Assembly (NCBI RefSeq): GCF_030268965.1
Contig: NZ_BSSE01000008.1
Coordinates: 186,001 to 250,000 of the forward strand
DNA from: Microtetraspora sp. NBRC 16547
GTDB taxonomy: Bacteria; Actinomycetota; Actinomycetes; Streptosporangiales; Streptosporangiaceae
Direction: 5' to 3'
DNA length: 64,000 nt
Below, piece after piece: positions 48,393 to 55,448 of the stretch. The number at the start of each line of letters is the position of its first letter. Positions within the stretch are counted from its first letter, which is position 1. The translations under genes and the position numbers were made by a program. Under the pieces are notes generated by a model. That model had not been told where the DNA came from and ran no database searches. It saw only the letters and a list, made by a program, of their open reading frames with translations.

Positions 48393-48485
48393 GGAGGCGT
48401 TTAGGAGTCTGGTGGCCCTCCTGGTCTTCAAAACCAGTGGCGCCGAGCATCTCGGCGCGGCGGGTTCGATTCCCGTCCGCCTCCG
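48393..48485 (+). tRNA. selC: tRNA-Sec (anticodon UCA)
   Basis: The sequence folds as a long selenocysteine tRNA: acceptor GGAGGCG.../...CGCCTCC, anticodon stem CTGGT/ACCAG around the loop CTTCAAA (anticodon TCA at 48428-48430), a long extra arm (GGCGCCGAG and CTCGGCGC), and T arm CGGGTTCGATTCCCG. The 93-nt length, long variable arm and UCA anticodon are diagnostic. CCA is not encoded. It lies just upstream of selA and selB. Confidence 0.96.
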
Positions 48486-48513
48486 CTGATCAGTGCATTC
48501 GGGATGGTCGTGA

Positions 48514-49794
48514 GTGGATCGACGCAGGTCTGTGCCGCGGACGGATGCCATGCTGGCCGACCCTCGGCTGGCCGCCGCGCAGGAGGTACTCGGCCGTAGC
48601 CTCGTCAAGGCCGCGGTGGCGGACGCCCAGCAGCGGGTCCGCGAGGGCTTCGCCGACCCCGGCGAAGCGGTGGAGGCCGCGCTCGCCCTCCTCCCCGCGA
48701 CCGCCGGCGGGCTCAAGAGCGTGGTCAACGCCACCGGCGTGCTCGTGCACACCAATCTGGGCCGGGCTCCGCTCTCACCCGCCGCCGTCGCGGCGGTCAC
48801 CGCGGCCTCCGGCTATACCGACGTCGAGTTCGACCTGGCCGACGGGCGACGCGCCCGCCGTGGGCGTACGGCTCTCGCCGCGCTGGCGCAGGCGGTGCCC
48901 GAGGCGGGGGCTGTGCACGTGGTCAACAACAACGCGGCCGCGCTCGTGCTCGCCGTCGCGGTGCTCGCGCCGGGCAAGGAGGTCCTCGTCAGCCGGGGCG
49001 AGCTGGTGGAGATCGGCGACGGGTTCCGCCTGCCCGAGCTGCTGGAGTCCGCCGGTTGCCGGCTTCGCGAGGTCGGCACCACGAACCGCACCGCCTTGCG
49101 CGACTACGTGCACGCCTGCGGCCCGGACACAGGCTTCATTCTCAAGGTCCATCCGTCCAACTACCGGATCGAGGGATTCACCTCCGAGGTCTCCATCCAG
49201 GAGCTGGCCACGATCGGGCCGCCCGTGGTGGCCGACATCGGCTCGGGGCTGCTCCGCCCGGAACCCCTGCTGCCCGGCGAACCGGACGCGGCCGGCGCAC
49301 TGCTCCAGGGAGCGGCGCTGGTCACCGCCAGCGGCGACAAGCTGCTCGGCGGCCCGCAGGCGGGTCTCCTGCTCGGCGATGAGGACCTCGTGGAACGGCT
49401 GCGCCGCCATCCCCTCGCCCGCGCGCTGCGGGTGGACAAGCTCACCCTGGCCGCGCTCGAAGCGACCCTGCGCGGTTCGCTGCCGCCGGTGCACCGCTCG
49501 CTCCGCACAAGCGTCGCCGAGCTCAGGGAACGTGCGGAACGACTCGCGCGACGCCTCGGCGGCCGCGCGGAGGCGGTGGCGACCGTGGCCAGGGTCGGCG
49601 GCGGGGGCGCGCCGGGAGTGGAGCTGCCCAGCGCGGGAATCGCCGTGGACGCGGACCTGGCCGCACGGCTGCGCTCCTGCGACCCTCCCGTGATCGGCCG
49701 GGTCACAGGAGGGCGCCTGGTGCTCGACCTGCGCGCGGTCGAGCCCGGTCAGGACGAGGTCATCGCCGCCGCGTTGGAGCGCGTGTGCAGGTGA
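48514..49794 (+). CDS. selA: L-seryl-tRNA(Sec) selenium transferase
   Basis: This 426-residue PLP enzyme converts Ser-tRNA(Sec) to Sec-tRNA(Sec) with selenophosphate. Visible SelA motifs are VVNATGVLVHTNLGRAPLS, VHVVNNNAAALVLAVA, SRGELVEIGDGFRLPELLES, the GTTNRT loop, LKVHPSNYRIEGFT, VVADIGSGLL and the PLP lysine in SGDKLLGGPQAGLLLG. It starts at GTG 28 nt after the tRNA-Sec gene and overlaps selB by 10 nt. No selD for selenophosphate synthesis is in the window and must lie elsewhere. Confidence 0.96.
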   Translation: MDRRRSVPRTDAMLADPRLAAAQEVLGRSLVKAAVADAQQRVREGFADPGEAVEAALALLPATAGGLKSVVNATGVLVHTNLGRAPLSPAAVAAVTAASGYTDVEFDLADGRRARRGRTALAALAQAVPEAGAVHVVNNNAAALVLAVAVLAPGKEVLVSRGELVEIGDGFRLPELLESAGCRLREVGTTNRTALRDYVHACGPDTGFILKVHPSNYRIEGFTSEVSIQELATIGPPVVADIGSGLLRPEPLLPGEPDAAGALLQGAALVTASGDKLLGGPQAGLLLGDEDLVERLRRHPLARALRVDKLTLAALEATLRGSLPPVHRSLRTSVAELRERAERLARRLGGRAEAVATVARVGGGGAPGVELPSAGIAVDADLAARLRSCDPPVIGRVTGGRLVLDLRAVEPGQDEVIAAALERVCR

Positions 49795-51530
49795 TCGCGA
49801 CGGCCGGGCACGTCGACCACGGCAAGTCGACGCTGATCCGGGCGCTGACCGGAATGGAGCCTGACCGCTGGGCCGAGGAACGCCGCCGCGGCATGACCAT
49901 CGACCTCGGCTTCGCCTGGACCACCCTGCGCTCGGGCGAACGGATCGCGTTCGTCGACGTTCCCGGGCACGAGCGTTTCGTCACCAACATGCTGGCCGGG
50001 GTCGGGCCGTGCCCGGCGGTGATGATCGTCGTGGCCGCCGACGAGGGCTGGCAGGCCCAGTCGGCCGAGCACTTGGCCGCGCTCGACGCCCTGGGCGTAC
50101 GGCATGGCCTGGCGGTCGTCACCAGGGCCGATCTCGCCGAGCCTGAGCTCGCCCTGACACAGGTCCACGGCCACCTCGACAAAACATGCCTGGCGGGGAT
50201 CGAGAGCGTCGTCGTCAGCGGGCGGACCGGGCAGGGGCTTCCCGAGCTGGAGGCCGCCCTGGCCCGGCTCGCCGCCACGTTGCCCGAGCCGGACACCGAG
50301 GGTGCCGTCCGGTTGTGGATCGACCGGGTCTTCACCGTGGCGGGAGCGGGGACCGTCGTCACCGGCACGCTGAGCAGGGGGACGCTCCGTGTCGGCGACG
50401 AGCTGGACATGAGCGGCCGGCGGGTCAGGATCCGCGGGCTCCAGACACTCGGTGAGAAGAAGGAGAAGGTCTCCGCGACCGCCCGCGTCGCCGTCAACCT
50501 CCGGGGCGTCGACCGTGACGGCCTGTCCCGAGGCATGGCGCTGGTGACTCCCGAGTTCTGGATGCCGACCCGGGTCATCGACGTACGGCTGAACGCGGGC
50601 GTGCATCATCGTGGAGAGGCGGTGCTCCACGTCGGGTCGGCCGCCGTCCCCGTCAGGCTCCGTTTCCTCGGCGGCGACACCGCCAGGCTCACCCTCAGCC
50701 GTACCCTGCCTCTCAGGACAGGCGACCGGGGCCTGCTCCGCGATCCCGGCAGACGGGAGATCATCGCCGGGCTGCGAGTGCTGGATGTGCGTCCTCCCGC
50801 GCTGCGGCGCCGGGGCGCGGCAGCCGCCAGGGCGGCCGCGCTCGGCGAGGTGGGGCTCCCCGACGCCGCGGCCCTGCTGCGCTGGCATGGCCTGCTGAGG
50901 GGCAGCGAGCTCACGGCGATGGGCTGCCCGCCCGGGGGCTCACCCGTCGTCGGCGACTGGTACGCCGACCCGGGGCACTGGTCGTCGCTGCGCAGCCGTC
51001 TCGCCGACCACGTCTCGCGACGGCCCGCACTCGACCCGGGGATCACCGTGGACGCCGCCACCCAGCTGCTCGCCCTGTCTGATCGCCGGCTCACCGAGGC
51101 GCTCGTGGCGCCGCCGCTGGCGGTCGAGGGCGGGCGGATCCTTCCCGCCGGAGGGTCGCTGCCTCCAGCGATCGCCAAGGCGGTCACGGAGCTGACCGCC
51201 GACCTCGCCGAGCAGCCCTTCAACGCCCCTACCGCCGAGCGCCTGAACGAACTCGGCCTCACGGGCAAGGCGCTGGCGGCGGCGCTCCGCTCGGGCGCGG
51301 TGACGTCGATCGCGAAGAACGTCATCCTCCTGCCCGGCGCGCTGGACAGGGCCGCGGACGTTCTCGCCCGGTTGCCCTCGCCCTTCACCGTCAGCGACGC
51401 GCGGGTCGCCCTGGCCACCAGCCGCCGCGTCGTCCTCCCCCTCCTGGAGCGCCTCGACGCCGGGGGAATCACCCGGCGGATCGACAACGACCTGCGCATA
51501 TGCCGCCCCCAGGACGGGTCGCACCTCTAG
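49785..51530 (+). CDS. selB: Selenocysteine-specific translation elongation factor
   Basis: This 581-residue GTPase begins with the P-loop AGHVDHGKSTLIRAL, then RRGMTIDLGFAW (switch I), VDVPGHERFV (switch II) and a TRAD motif replacing NKxD. Two beta-barrel domains follow (GTVVTGTLSRGTLRVGDELD), then C-terminal winged-helix domains that bind the SECIS hairpin. It delivers Sec-tRNA to UGA codons. It is co-translated with selA. Its 3' end overlaps by 4 nt the last gene of a convergent operon that contains an in-frame UGA (see below). Confidence 0.95.
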   Translation: MQVIATAGHVDHGKSTLIRALTGMEPDRWAEERRRGMTIDLGFAWTTLRSGERIAFVDVPGHERFVTNMLAGVGPCPAVMIVVAADEGWQAQSAEHLAALDALGVRHGLAVVTRADLAEPELALTQVHGHLDKTCLAGIESVVVSGRTGQGLPELEAALARLAATLPEPDTEGAVRLWIDRVFTVAGAGTVVTGTLSRGTLRVGDELDMSGRRVRIRGLQTLGEKKEKVSATARVAVNLRGVDRDGLSRGMALVTPEFWMPTRVIDVRLNAGVHHRGEAVLHVGSAAVPVRLRFLGGDTARLTLSRTLPLRTGDRGLLRDPGRREIIAGLRVLDVRPPALRRRGAAAARAAALGEVGLPDAAALLRWHGLLRGSELTAMGCPPGGSPVVGDWYADPGHWSSLRSRLADHVSRRPALDPGITVDAATQLLALSDRRLTEALVAPPLAVEGGRILPAGGSLPPAIAKAVTELTADLAEQPFNAPTAERLNELGLTGKALAAALRSGAVTSIAKNVILLPGALDRAADVLARLPSPFTVSDARVALATSRRVVLPLLERLDAGGITRRIDNDLRICRPQDGSHL

Positions 51531-52039
51531 GACGGGACGGCGTCCAGCTGGGTACGCGCGGCCTCCGCGAACAGTTGGAGCTCCGCGTCAGAGCCGGTGC
51601 CGGCGAGCACGATGAACCTGTCCTTCGACATCGCCGCCACCTCCACCTCGCCGTCGTGGCGCGCGACGTTCTTGGGCCCGGGCACCGAGGTGACGCTGCC
51701 GACCGTTCCGCATTCCGCATAGAAGGACTTGAACGCGTCCATGGCGTCCACCCCGCTCACCACGACCTGCGTCATCGTGGTCCCGTCCGTCGCCGTGAAG
51801 GAACGCCACGAGGTCGCGGCTTCCATCGGCGCGATGACCCGCTTCCCGCAGGGCACCAGGCTCGCGTCCAGATCTCGCCAGATCCCGTGCGAGGCGCCCG
51901 TGACTGTCCACGTACGGCCGTCCTTCAGTTGGCCCGGTTCCAGGAGGAGCGAGGGCGGGTCGGTCTTCACCGGCTCTGCGCCGCAGGCGGCGCAGGCGGC
52001 GCAGAGCAGCGCGATGAGCGTCACGATCGTGCGGTTCAC
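51527..52039 (-). CDS. Predicted lipoprotein
   Basis: This 170-residue protein has a lipoprotein-type signal (MNRTIVTLIALLCAACAACG) with two candidate lipobox cysteines at about 16 and 19. The mature part is small and mixed alpha/beta, with two cysteines (LVPCGKR and YAECGTVG) and a C-terminal ELQLFAEAARTQLDAVPS. I do not recognise a family. It is the last gene of the methylamine-utilisation-like operon, 36 nt after the MauE-like gene, so it is likely an outer-face component of that system. Confidence 0.75.
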   Translation of the reverse strand: MNRTIVTLIALLCAACAACGAEPVKTDPPSLLLEPGQLKDGRTWTVTGASHGIWRDLDASLVPCGKRVIAPMEAATSWRSFTATDGTTMTQVVVSGVDAMDAFKSFYAECGTVGSVTSVPGPKNVARHDGEVEVAAMSKDRFIVLAGTGSDAELQLFAEAARTQLDAVPS

Positions 52040-52075: not shown

Positions 52076-52606
52076 TTATTGCCCGTGGGCCGCGGAGGTT
52101 CCCTGAAGATCGGCCACCTTGTCGGCGACGATCAGGAAGCCCGCCACGAAGATGGCAAGTCCGCAGGCGAGCAGCCGGGCACCCATCTCAGCCGGTACGG
52201 GCGGCCATTCTGCGACGAGCGGTGCCGTGGCCAGTGCCAGCAGTACGGCACGGCCGACCTTCACAGGCGAGGCCGGGCTGGTCTCATCCAGGCATCCGCA
52301 CGGCACCCTGCCCCTGCGCCGCAGCAGTACGGCCAGATAGGCAGCCAGTGCCAGGTACCAGAGCGCCACGGCTGCGGCGGCGAACCGCAACAGCCGGGCT
52401 TCTCCAGCCAGCCAACCAGCCAGTACGGCGGCGCCGGTCAGGCCCTCGGCGGGCCCGACCAGCGGCGCGAGCCGTACCAGGAAGACGGGAAGCAGGTCGT
52501 GTGCTTTGATCACCTCCGTCAGGCTGCCGCGGCGCACCGCGGCAACCACCAGCAGCACGGCGCCCGCCAGGGCGAAGCAGGCAGGCAGAGTGTCGAAGAT
52601 TGTCAT
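52076..52606 (-). CDS. MauE/DoxX-like membrane protein
   Basis: This 176-residue protein has four membrane segments (LPACFALAGAVLLVVAAV; EGLTGAAVLAGWLAG; LLRFAAAAVALWYLALAAYL; the last near the C-terminus) and a central CGC motif (VPCGCLDETSP). The four-helix layout with HDLLP before helix 2 is that of MauE, the methylamine-utilisation membrane protein thought to handle reducing equivalents or disulfides during assembly of the small MADH subunit. The Cys pair suits a thiol-redox role. It follows the Sec-candidate membrane protein with adjoining stop and start. Confidence 0.8.
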   Translation of the reverse strand: MTIFDTLPACFALAGAVLLVVAAVRRGSLTEVIKAHDLLPVFLVRLAPLVGPAEGLTGAAVLAGWLAGEARLLRFAAAAVALWYLALAAYLAVLLRRRGRVPCGCLDETSPASPVKVGRAVLLALATAPLVAEWPPVPAEMGARLLACGLAIFVAGFLIVADKVADLQGTSAAHGQ

Positions 52607-53320
52607 CTATGTCCATAGGAGCGCGAGCGACAGCAGGAACCCGATGGCACACAGGCGTCCCACCCAGGCAGTCGAGGCCAGCAGCTTCGTGTCCCACTGG
52701 TGCGGGTCGCCGCTGAGTGCGCGAGTGAGCGGCATGAGCGCCCTGCCCACGCCGAAGCCCAGCCCGGCCAGCAGGCCCGGTCCGAGTCCTCCGGCCAGCA
52801 CGACAACCAGGACGAGCAGCTGAGGTAGCGCGGTCGGGGTGAAGGTACGCACACCCGTGCCCATCTCGAAGCCGAACTGCAGCGGCCCGGAGAAGTCGGA
52901 GCGAGGGATGACGTCCTGCGGCACGAGCCGGCGGTTCTGCGGCAGCGACAGCGGCCGTCCGGCCAGCTCGAAGAGCATGATGACGGCGATGATCGGGGCG
53001 AGCGCCCATAGCCGCACTGCTTCCGGGATGATCGAGGCCAGCCCGCCGAGCGTCCCCGTGAGGAGGCCGGCCAGCAGCGCGCCGATCATGAGTCCGATGG
53101 TGAAAACGGGTAACTTGCCTCGCCAGACCGACGAGGTCAGCAGGTCCGCTGAGTTGAGGCTTCAAACGGAGCCGGACAGCGAGAACCCGGCTGTCACCCC
53201 CATCAGCGTCCAGGCGAGCAGGGTGAACGACGGAGTCCAGAACTGGTGGGCGGCCATCACCAGGGCCGTGCTCAGCGCGATGCCGAGCGCGACCCTGGTG
53301 GCGGCGAAGCTGTTACTCAT
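52607..53320 (-). CDS. Membrane protein with in-frame UGA: candidate selenoprotein
   Basis: The frame starts at ATG (MSNSFAATRVALGIALSTAL), runs 52 codons, meets TGA at 53162-53164 (residue 53), and continues in the same frame without a start codon for 25 codons (SLNSADLLTSSVWRGKLPVF) and on through further membrane segments (LWALAPIIAVIMLFELAG, LLVLVVVLAGGLGPGLLAGL) to a TAG. Read through UGA, it is a 237-residue protein with about six membrane helices. Hydrophobicity and codon use are continuous across the UGA. A 7-bp hairpin with loop GGUCU lies shortly downstream. The internal ATG at 53089 has no convincing ribosome-binding site. Alternatives are a nonsense mutation or base error. The family is unknown to me. 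It sits between a Cys-rich Tat substrate and MauE-like genes. Confidence 0.65.
53118..53136 (-). promoter_or_regulatory. Candidate bacterial SECIS hairpin
   Basis: In the mRNA, CCUCGUC pairs with GGCGAGG (one U-G) and leaves the pentaloop GGUCU. The loop begins 33 nt after the UGA. Bacterial SECIS elements sit within the coding region shortly after UGA and carry G-U in the loop; the E. coli fdhF element also presents GGUCU. The reading frame continues through it. Confidence 0.6.
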
Positions 53321-53326
53321 CAGTGC

Positions 53327-53821
53327 TCACGGGCGGGGCCAGGCGCAGATGTAGAAGGACGTACCGCCGCAGCTAGCGATGTTTCCGTCGGCGCAGCGGT
53401 AAGGGGTGCCGCTGAACGTCCAACGCCAGGCGTTCCGGGCAGTGTAGCCGTCTCCGCACGCCTTGATGGCGTAGCTGTTCCAGCAGGTGCCGGAGGAGCG
53501 CAAGAACCAGCCGTCGCCGCCGCAGTAGCTCTTGGAGTAGGTGCCACCCACGCAGATCTTGGTGTCGTTGTTGTAACCGCTCCAGTTGTTGTAACCGGCG
53601 CAGTGGGTGTACTCATCCCCTACCACTGCCTGGGCGCTGTTGTTCCTGCCCGGCAGGGCGGACAGCACGTTCAGGGCCAGGGCGCCGCCCAGCACGCCTG
53701 CGGTCTTGAAGATGGTTCTGCGGGAGGGCATCGACCACGTCAGGCTGCGACGCCTGCCGCTGTCCGGCTCGTCTTCCACGGAGGGCACCTCGGCCCAGTA
53801 GCGGTCGACATCGACTGTCAT
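53327..53821 (-). CDS. Tat-exported Cys-rich protein, MADH small-subunit-like
   Basis: This 164-residue protein has a twin-arginine signal after a 30-residue leader (SRRTIFKTAGVLGGALALNV, then LSALPGRNNSAQA). The mature part is about 100 residues with eight cysteines in an aromatic, Gly-rich context (HCAGYNNWSGYNND, YCGGDGWFL, GTCWNSYAIKACGDGY, YRCADGNIASCGG, ICAWPRP). Tat export, Cys density and linkage to MauD- and MauE-like genes resemble the methylamine dehydrogenase light chain, but it has 8 rather than 12 cysteines and no provable TTQ tryptophans, so the enzymatic role is open. It is 6 nt upstream of the UGA-containing gene. Confidence 0.75.
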   Translation of the reverse strand: MTVDVDRYWAEVPSVEDEPDSGRRRSLTWSMPSRRTIFKTAGVLGGALALNVLSALPGRNNSAQAVVGDEYTHCAGYNNWSGYNNDTKICVGGTYSKSYCGGDGWFLRSSGTCWNSYAIKACGDGYTARNAWRWTFSGTPYRCADGNIASCGGTSFYICAWPRP

Positions 53822-54324
53822 GCGCTTAACCTCTCTGAGGAGTCGACGGCGAGAAAGGCGTCGAGGTCGTCATCGGAACCGACGACCCTGCGCCATTCCT
53901 CCGTCCCGTTGGCGGAGTACTTGACCAGCGTCGGGGTCGCGCCGACGGCGACCGTGCCGACAAGGGTGGCGTCGATGACGGGGAGGACCTGGCTGTCCGC
54001 CACCCACTCGGCGCAACGGTCGGCGGGTGCCAGCAGCACGGCGTGTCCGGACAGGCCTGGCCCGGCCACGGCGGCAAGGCGGTGGGCACGATCCCGGCAG
54101 TTGGAGCAGTGCTCCGACACGACCAGGACGAAGGTCGGCAAACCATCGTCGGAGCCGAACCTGTCCACCGACCTGACGACCGGCGCCGCCGGCGCGGCCG
54201 CCTGCGCGCGCAGCAGCTTGCCCTGCAGCTCACGGACCATGTTCAGCATCGCGGCGAAGGCGAAGAGGAGCAGCACCGTCCCCAGGAAGGACAGAACCGC
54301 CAGCGAGTCCAGGAATGCCCTCAT
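53818..54324 (-). CDS. MauD-like membrane-anchored thioredoxin-fold protein
   Basis: This 168-residue protein has one N-terminal membrane anchor (LAVLSFLGTVLLLFAFAAML) and an extracytoplasmic thioredoxin-like domain with the redox motif CSNC (Cys73, Cys76) in LVVSEHCSNCRDR and a later VGATPTLVKY that matches the thioredoxin cis-Pro region. MauD proteins have the same plan and serve disulfide formation in the small subunit of methylamine dehydrogenase. Here the partner is probably the Cys-rich Tat substrate encoded directly downstream, whose start it overlaps by 4 nt. Confidence 0.82.
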   Translation of the reverse strand: MRAFLDSLAVLSFLGTVLLLFAFAAMLNMVRELQGKLLRAQAAAPAAPVVRSVDRFGSDDGLPTFVLVVSEHCSNCRDRAHRLAAVAGPGLSGHAVLLAPADRCAEWVADSQVLPVIDATLVGTVAVGATPTLVKYSANGTEEWRRVVGSDDDLDAFLAVDSSERLSA

Positions 54325-54328
54325 CGGT

Positions 54329-55006
54329 CTAGCTCAGCCTGCACGAGATGGACTCCACGACATTGATGAAGCGCGCGTCGTCCGGGCGGGCGGCGACCAC
54401 GGTCGTCGCGGTGCTGTCATTGACCATGAAGGCTGAGCGGGTCTGGACGATGCCGGTCGCGTCGCGCTCGTCGACGCGCCACATCGAGCCGCCAGGCACC
54501 TTCTTGCCCGTGGAGGGCGGGATCGCCTCCAAGGCTTCCGCGATCGGCTTGACCTGGACATTGCAGACCTGGTCGATGGTGTTGACCGCCAGCAGGTTGC
54601 CGAGCGTCAGGCCCGCTCCCGCCCGGGGCAGCATGGTCAGCCCTTCCGGTGTGTCCTGGATGTCGAACTTGGCCAGGATGTCCATGAAGGCTTCGAACGG
54701 GACGCCCGTGCCGGTGAAGAAGGTGGCAATCTCGTGGTGCGGTCCCACCCACACCATGTTGGTCCCGATCTCCGGGTCCTCGAGCGACACCATCCGGCCG
54801 CCGTTCCACTGGGCCTCACGCACGGTGTAGCGGGACCAGTCGCCCATCTGCTTCGGGAGGAGTTCGTTGGACCCTGCCGGAACGACCTGGAACCGGATGC
54901 CACCGGTGGGGCCGTGTGCCCAGATGAGGTAGGCCCAGCCGCCGATGAAGGGCTGAGAGTTTCCGTCGACCGTTAGACGTTGTCCGTTGGGTGCACGCAC
55001 TTGCAT
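54329..55006 (-). CDS. Unknown protein, first gene of the Mau-like operon
   Basis: This 225-residue protein starts MQVRAPNGQRLTVDG behind AAAGG. No signal peptide or membrane segment is visible. The sequence is beta-rich at first (GGWAYLIWAHGPTGGIRFQV), then has a middle helical section with TMLPRAGAGLTLGNLLAVNT, and ends with a Cys (VVESISCRLS). I do not recognise a family. It is 4 nt upstream of the MauD-like gene, so it belongs to the operon and may be a cytoplasmic assembly or regulatory part. Confidence 0.7.
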   Translation of the reverse strand: MQVRAPNGQRLTVDGNSQPFIGGWAYLIWAHGPTGGIRFQVVPAGSNELLPKQMGDWSRYTVREAQWNGGRMVSLEDPEIGTNMVWVGPHHEIATFFTGTGVPFEAFMDILAKFDIQDTPEGLTMLPRAGAGLTLGNLLAVNTIDQVCNVQVKPIAEALEAIPPSTGKKVPGGSMWRVDERDATGIVQTRSAFMVNDSTATTVVAARPDDARFINVVESISCRLS

Positions 55007-55448
55007 GGGGTTGCCTTTCACAAGGAGGGGGGAGGGGCACACCGAGTAGTCCGGATGGGCTTTGAACTGGCAGGGAGGTGTAGGTGTGCCCGGCGCCTGC
55101 GCCGAACTCCATCAAGATCAAACGGAATATCTCACGCGATCTACAGGCAGTCAAGATCTTGTCAAGTCTATGGATCGGGCTGCATACTGTGTGTCCCAAA
55201 TTCCTTTACAGTCGTTCGCTAAACCACCGCGAAGTTTCAGTAGGTGCCTGGGTCTAGTCGTGGGATTGGTAATGGCGACTGGAAGTGTCCTGATGGCCGC
55301 CTTGGTTGTTACTGACGTCTTTCTCACGACGGGCTACATCGAGATGGGTTATGACGAAGGGGCCTCGGAGCCTTACTGAACAGAGACCCCGTCTGATGCG
55401 GCGAGGGTGTGGCCGACTCGTACCGGAGCCGCCCGGGCGCCGTTGTCA
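55007..55448. other. Promoter region of the Mau-like operon; possible small ORF
   Basis: The first 200 bp upstream of the operon are AT-richer and should contain its promoter. A plus-strand frame ending at 55379 encodes a hydrophobic tail (LVVGLVMATGSVLMAALVVT) that could be a small membrane peptide, but its start and codon use are unclear and I do not call it. Confidence 0.35.

Follow-up and report, generated by a model that had tools for sequence, protein, structure and literature searches.

A MauF-like membrane protein of Actinomycetota with a probable selenocysteine at an in-frame UGA codon

Results

Genes at the locus

The window analysed here is a stretch of 64,000 nucleotides from Microtetraspora sp. 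NBRC 16547 (contig NZ_BSSE01000008.1, positions 186,001 to 250,000 of the forward strand), and the features of interest within it are listed in Table 1. Five minus-strand genes stand in tight order, encoding a 237-residue conserved protein, a thioredoxin-like protein, a Cys-rich protein that bears a Tat signal, the product of a gene with an internal UGA, and MauE. The UGA gene, here called Sec-MauF after the reading argued below, opens with ATG at 53320, contains a single TGA, at codon 53, and runs on in the same frame to a TAG. The sequence-only reading of this DNA had described the same frame, and re-reading of the sequence confirmed it. The genes selC, selA and selB claimed next to the cluster were likewise borne out by ARAGORN, Rfam, Pfam and NCBIfam. 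The selD gene lies elsewhere in the host genome, in which selA, selB, selC and selD are thus all present.

Table 1 Features of the Sec-MauF locus, in window coordinates
Feature	Position	Strand	Evidence
tRNA-Sec gene (selC)	48393..48486	+	ARAGORN; Rfam RF01852, 77.8 bits (gathering score 47)
selA	48514..49794	+	TIGR00474, 432.3 bits (cut-off 267.9); also Pfam
selB	49785..51530	+	TIGR00475, 297.5 bits (cut-off 242.25); also Pfam
ORF at cluster end, possible lipoprotein, membership uncertain	51527..52039	-	ORF only
MauE membrane protein	52076..52606	-	Pfam PF07291, E 7.7e-11; C-x-C invariant in 70-row alignment
Sec-MauF coding sequence, 237 residues with TGA read as Sec	52607..53320	-	hhalign homology to MauF
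SECIS-type hairpin CCUCGUC-GGUCU-GGCGAGG	53118..53136	-	32 nt from UGA to loop
UGA codon 53, inferred selenocysteine	53162..53164	-	Conserved UGA column; Cys in 5 distant homologs
Cys-rich Tat-signal protein	53327..53821	-	Tat signal E 0.003, below Pfam cut-off
MauD-like membrane-anchored thioredoxin-like protein	53818..54324	-	CxxC
Conserved 237-residue protein, family without name	54329..55042	-	Homologs in 69/80 loci

The MauD-like, MauE and Cys-rich Tat partners assigned to the gene in the sequence-only reading were right, as judged by Pfam, by a profile match to MauD and by the alignment of the Cys-rich family. The thioredoxin-like family (16 rows) matches MauD of Paracoccus along its length (Prob 97.1, E 5.1e-11), and its PDB profile matches include MPT53 (3.6e-6) and DsbF (2.3e-5). 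Six Cys residues and a W-x-W motif are invariant in all 19 rows of the Cys-rich family, the window's protein included. A PDB profile search with this family matched the signal region only, and the AlphaFold model of the protein has a pLDDT of 51.2. An identity of the Cys-rich neighbour with MauA was considered and rejected, since the alignment is confined to the Tat signal region (Prob 18.6). The product of the gene at the upstream end of the cluster matches no Pfam family over cut-off. For the possible lipoprotein at the other end, the homology search was unreliable, as it matched the selenoprotein region in other frames.

The arrangement is widely shared. In the best 80 of the 192 loci described below, genes of the thioredoxin-like (77), Cys-rich (78), 237-residue (69) and MauE (64) families lie on the same strand within 3 kb of the UGA gene. 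We also inspected 20 distant loci, 15 with UGA and 5 with Cys at the corresponding codon, on either strand and over about 6 kb of flank where the contig allowed. A MauD-like gene accompanies all 15 UGA loci and MauE 14 of them, with 3 of 5 and 2 of 5, respectively, at the Cys loci, and the window's Cys-rich and 237-residue families were detected in none of the 20. At three loci from distant lineages, ORFs with 22 Cys codons each lie between the MauD-like and Sec-MauF genes (L204:6687-7136, L206:3260-3835 and L208:3705-4373). At two UGA loci (L138 and L143), Sec-MauF continues at its C-terminus into a fused MauE domain (Pfam E 2.3e-24 and 2e-18).

Relatives carry UGA or Cys where the codon is identifiable

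A search with the read-through protein found two further copies in the window's own genome, each with one in-frame TGA. In a sample from the host's family, 32 of 120 genomes have a Sec-MauF match. All 37 matches, the three own copies included, contain exactly one TGA, and in all 37 the UGA stands at the aligned codon. Three other genomes of the host's genus contain selA and gave no Sec-MauF match.

In a collection of genomes from named organisms we confirmed 192 relatives, and among the best 80 of these the codon is UGA in 79 (78 by pattern, L084 by eye). One of the two search patterns lacked the Sec codon, so Cys forms were detectable. Hosts among the best 80 of the 192 include Nonomuraea, Herbidospora, Streptomyces, Micromonospora, Actinoplanes, Actinomadura, Amycolatopsis, Phycicoccus, Pimelobacter and one genome of the Acidimicrobiia. 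The eightieth locus, the copy in Nonomuraea sp. SYSU D8015 (L052:8850-9300), is broken upstream of codon 55, and the record of Nonomuraea gerenzanensis carries no annotated features at its locus.

A profile search of 396 genomes sampled across the phylum gave matches in 44, the host's own included. The codon is UGA in 35 of these and Cys in five (L121, L123, L125, L135 and L142); four are undecided, one being masked (G386), one without the motif (G393), one at a contig start (G406) and one a doubtful match (G210). A plasmid search with a distant Sec-MauF as query gave no match. The motif around the codon is WSP[U/C]G, with a few variants, in the distant relatives and GSVU in the window's protein. 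The Sec53 column holds Cys or Sec in all 34 rows of the window-family alignment (A5, all Sec) and in all 25 rows of alignment A2, where it corresponds to the WSPCG position, and there is no second such column. The sequence-only reading had proposed to see which residue relatives carry at position 53, and the answer is UGA or Cys wherever the codon could be identified.

The region downstream of the UGA evolves as protein-coding sequence. In seven comparisons with close Nonomuraea copies, two of which are the same sequence, dN/dS ranges from 0 to 0.36 over codons 54-77 and from 0.18 to 0.29 over codons 78-237. Two separate proteins, or loss of this region among relatives, had been named beforehand as outcomes that would speak against a selenoprotein; instead, the region 3' of the UGA is conserved as protein, with low dN/dS.

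A hairpin follows the UGA in most members

The stem CCUCGUC/GGCGAGG with loop GGUCU, noted earlier at 25 nt past the UGA, is present on re-examination. Its arms (53136-53130 and 53124-53118) form 7 bp around the loop (53129-53125), with 25 nt from UGA to stem and 32 nt from UGA to loop. A bacterial SECIS model given in the accessible part of a recent catalogue requires a loop 16-37 nt from the UGA, a G in the first two loop bases and a stem of 4 bp or more at -7.5 kcal/mol or lower (PMC13188914). The window hairpin fits this model, with -10.0 kcal/mol, 32 nt, 7 bp and loop GGUCU.

Across the family, the same model (PMC13188914, as stated in that accessible part) fits 134 of 150 rows with UGA, 1 of 6 with Cys and 1161 of the 4773 positions used as controls (24%); the controls lie in the neighbouring MauE, selA and selB genes, and near-identical rows were kept. 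These counts leave out L127 (masked), L052 (broken), L117 (the window again) and L136, L157, L163 and L118, in which the codon was not found or the match was doubtful. A stricter test, for a GGU loop on a stem of at least 6 bp at a fixed place, is passed by 125 of 150 UGA rows, none of the 6 Cys rows and 94 of 9480 controls. Hairpins at -12 kcal/mol or lower are no commoner in UGA rows (11/150) than in controls (6.9%). A less redundant set comprises 67 UGA rows. Of these, 49 contain a GGU-loop hairpin with 5 bp or more and 36 beat synonymous shuffles at p ≤ 0.05; the best hairpins of the set fall into 36 distinct sequences, a few of which are trivial. Folding energy compared with synonymous shuffles gives a weak signal row by row (p ≤ 0.05 in 8/67 and 12/67 rows in two runs), and covariation in the hairpin of the close clade is no better than in shuffles (0.178 vs 0.173, with 145 of 500 shuffles as high). 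Among the 6 Cys rows one, L121, retains a GGU-loop hairpin, of 5 bp, that beats synonymous shuffles (p 0.009).

Lack of conservation of the hairpin among UGA-bearing relatives had also been put forward as evidence that would count against the proposal. We find that the hairpin recurs with different stems; 134 of the 150 UGA rows fit the model and 16 do not. Among the host's own paralogs, L002 has a hairpin that fits; L003 is one of the 16, together with its clade mates L167 and L168. These three, of which the first is the host's third copy (L003:1483-2115), share the motif SFGT[SA]U and keep the UGA with no model-fitting hairpin.

A second UGA gene with a hairpin of this type is found in the same genome. 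It encodes an FdhA-like formate dehydrogenase (L171, G000:C7:139355-140092) with an in-frame UGA (UHSS) and a score below the curated cut-off. As in Sec-MauF, the UGA is followed by a hairpin with a GGUCU loop, although the enzyme is unrelated and the distance from UGA to loop is 18 nt, counted by eye, against 32 nt in Sec-MauF. The same GGUCU loop occurs in E. coli fdhF.

Association with selA

In the family sample, selA scores over cut-off in all 32 genomes that contain Sec-MauF compared to 42 of 88 without (Fisher p 7e-9). In the phylum sample, where selA is over cut-off in 226 of 396 genomes overall, a selA match is present in each of the 35 UGA genomes (E 9e-116 or lower; Fisher p 1.3e-9) and in one of the five Cys-form genomes (UGA vs Cys, Fisher p 5.5e-5); the trials behind these p values are not independent, because the genomes are related. 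All 26 named genomes tested, the hosts of 26 of the 80 loci, contain selA. Within flanks of up to 9 kb, selA is found at 30 and selB at 29 of the 80 loci, counts in which the window region itself is perhaps included.

Two further observations concern Sec genes. In the host genome, two selA-like pieces below the family cut-off lie at G000:C7:168507-169265, by a CcdA-like gene (C7:167405), and are perhaps a decayed second copy. Amycolatopsis vancoresmycina DSM 44592 is listed with selD and with no known selenium trait in the part of a survey that was accessible (PMC5029168); the genome of strain NRRL B-24208 of this species (L093) contains both selA and Sec-MauF.

Homology to MauF

Neither the window protein nor the members scanned match any Pfam or NCBIfam model over cut-off, except in the MauE portion of the fusions. 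The clue to its identity came from the mau cluster of Paracoccus denitrificans (mauF-B-E-D-A), whose MauF contains the sequence STWSPCGYSS. Compared by hhalign with five Pseudomonadota MauF sequences, taken from 5 of the 15 plasmid records that contain MauF, the A5 profile aligns over 153 columns (Prob 97.0, E 9.1e-11), and Sec53 falls opposite a Cys that is invariant in all five. An alignment to the Paracoccus MauF by itself (Prob 95.8, E 6.5e-9) also places Sec53 opposite that protein's Cys, and addition of the distant members raises the match to MauF to Prob 99.5 (E 3.2e-23). In a plain alignment of nine sequences, unlike in the profile comparisons, Sec53 is misplaced and does not stand opposite the MauF Cys. 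On these profile comparisons, the window protein is very probably a homolog of MauF. It resembles MauF of P. denitrificans PD1222 (WP_011750949.1) in profile homology over 153-193 columns, in a residue opposite the WSPCG Cys and in the grouping of its gene with mauE and mauD; the Paracoccus protein, however, has Cys rather than Sec, and its gene lies beside mauB and mauA. The host genome gave no match to PF02975 (mauA), a model that detects Paracoccus MauA, or to PF06433 (mauB), used without a positive control, and the control genomes gave none either. Taking mauA and mauB as the mark of a methylamine dehydrogenase cluster, the window locus does not qualify as one.

A more distant relationship, to the CcdA/DsbD membrane reductases, is perhaps also present. 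The profile with distant members aligns with CcdA (Prob 85.1, E 6.2e-6) with the SPC motifs in register, and two distant members match the Pfam models DsbD_TM and DsbD_2 below their gathering scores (best E 8.4e-5 and 6.3e-4). The CcdA profile against MauF alone gives Prob 3.6. The AlphaFold model of Sec-MauF (pLDDT 87.9, pTM 0.82) has helix breaks at residues 46-52 and 155-165, and two such breaks would fit a CcdA-like design. CcdA and DsbD, to whose transmembrane domain the sequence similarity is weak, nevertheless have two redox-active Cys, whereas Sec-MauF has one conserved Cys/Sec column. The sequence-only reading had placed Sec53 at the end of the second membrane helix; the model instead predicts it at the break between helix pieces 30-46 and 52-62. 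A Foldseek search of the model against the PDB gave no match at E ≤ 0.001, and a PDB profile search with MauF returned nothing meaningful. Among known selenoproteins, TsoB (NF045694) is described, in the accessible part of the catalogue, as a rhodanese/DsbD fusion-like protein with a DsbD-like part and two Sec (PMC13188914). The TsoB model matches 1 of 34 Sec-MauF members, at E 0.044, which is too weak for membership, and with its two Sec and its rhodanese part TsoB, as described there, differs from Sec-MauF.

Discussion

Our results support the view that this gene encodes a selenoprotein. What had been listed as able to overturn that view spoke for it instead, to the extent that it could be tested, and the homology to MauF, the two paralogs in the same genome and the membership of a large family are points that the sequence-only reading did not contain. 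Comparative sequence evidence argues strongly that UGA codon 53 is decoded as selenocysteine, which we regard as almost certain. If the UGA were a true stop, the locus would yield a peptide of 52 residues and, from an internal ATG, a separate C-terminal protein, and an in-frame ATG is in fact found at codon 78 in the window and in the seven close rows examined. Such a protein would, however, lack codons 54-77, which are conserved at the low dN/dS given above, and Cys homologs cross the position in one frame; we consider this reading very improbable. Just as improbable is that a different residue is inserted at the UGA, or that the gene is a pseudogene or reflects a sequencing error. Beyond the stop codon itself nothing points that way, and an identical UGA in many assemblies, the exchange with Cys, the link to selA and the low dN/dS 3' of the UGA all stand against it. 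Separate proteins, read-through with another residue and a pseudogene were accordingly rejected on the conservation of UGA or Cys, the selA link and dN/dS.

The function can be approached through the neighbouring genes. In Paracoccus, MauD and MauE are needed for making the disulfide-rich MauA subunit. By analogy, the neighbourhood suggests, if weakly, that Sec-MauF acts as a membrane relay serving MauD and MauE as they set the disulfides of the exported Cys-rich protein, a maturation role that we consider somewhat likely. In the mechanism we propose, the neighbouring SelA, SelB and tRNA-Sec would decode UGA 53 as Sec, guided by the downstream hairpin. Sec53, the sole conserved Cys/Sec, would relay electrons at the predicted helix break by way of a transient mixed bond; with only one Sec, such bonds would have to form with partner proteins. 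This relay may link the membrane-anchored MauD-like protein, with its CxxC, to MauE, with its CxC, or to a cytosolic thioredoxin, and would give the cluster's exported Cys-rich protein its correct disulfides. The Cys-rich protein is likely to be the client, judging from its place in the cluster, and we infer both the membrane electron transfer by Sec-MauF and its direction. Taken as a whole, the explanation of a Sec-decoded MauF that forms a relay with MauD-like and MauE partners and matures the Cys-rich protein seems to us moderately likely.

A Sec-MauF that is real but has another task is the less likely alternative, though one to be taken seriously. It could keep the thiols of exported proteins reduced, or provide reductant for a cofactor derived from a peptide, as with TTQ in MauA. 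CcdA-type proteins are reductive relays, and the alignment of the distant-member profile with CcdA is in keeping with such a task; the W-x-W motif, invariant in all 19 Cys-rich rows, and the grouping of Paracoccus mauF, mauE and mauD with the methylamine dehydrogenase subunits would suit it as well. Yet no relation of the Cys-rich protein to MauA was detected outside the signal, and a cofactor-forming enzyme did not stand out among the genes of the cluster. In a more far-reaching form of the maturation role, Sec-MauF, MauD and MauE would be a selenol/thiol maturation machine in the membrane with a different secreted Cys-rich client in each lineage, and the window's client would be a new enzyme with a Trp-derived cofactor, the counterpart, assembled with the help of selenium, of the small subunit of methylamine dehydrogenase. 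This is a speculative idea that we think rather improbable.

Sec-MauF is classed here as a selenoprotein variant of the known MauF family. In its accessible part, a 2026 catalogue of 119 selenoprotein families does not name MauF, and the terms MauF, MauE and methylamine are absent from that text, with the unnamed hypothetical families of its table compared through NCBIfam only (PMC13188914). No NCBIfam model fits Sec-MauF. Titles and beginnings of abstracts on selenoproteins in actinomycetes, on mau genes and on DsbD/CcdA, a coverage that mostly excludes subscription papers, mention no such protein. Automatic annotation is likely to miss or truncate genes with an internal stop codon.

Should the selenoprotein reading hold, the Actinomycetota gain a large family of selenoproteins, with 192 relatives in one collection, matches in 32 of the 120 genomes sampled from the host's family and three copies in the host itself. 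It would also suggest that MauF, a little-understood protein of methylamine-oxidation clusters, is a membrane redox relay built on a single chalcogen. One membrane protein that occurs naturally with Sec and with Cys would make possible a direct test of why selenium is used there, and the hosts would gain a reason beyond formate dehydrogenase for keeping the Sec machinery.
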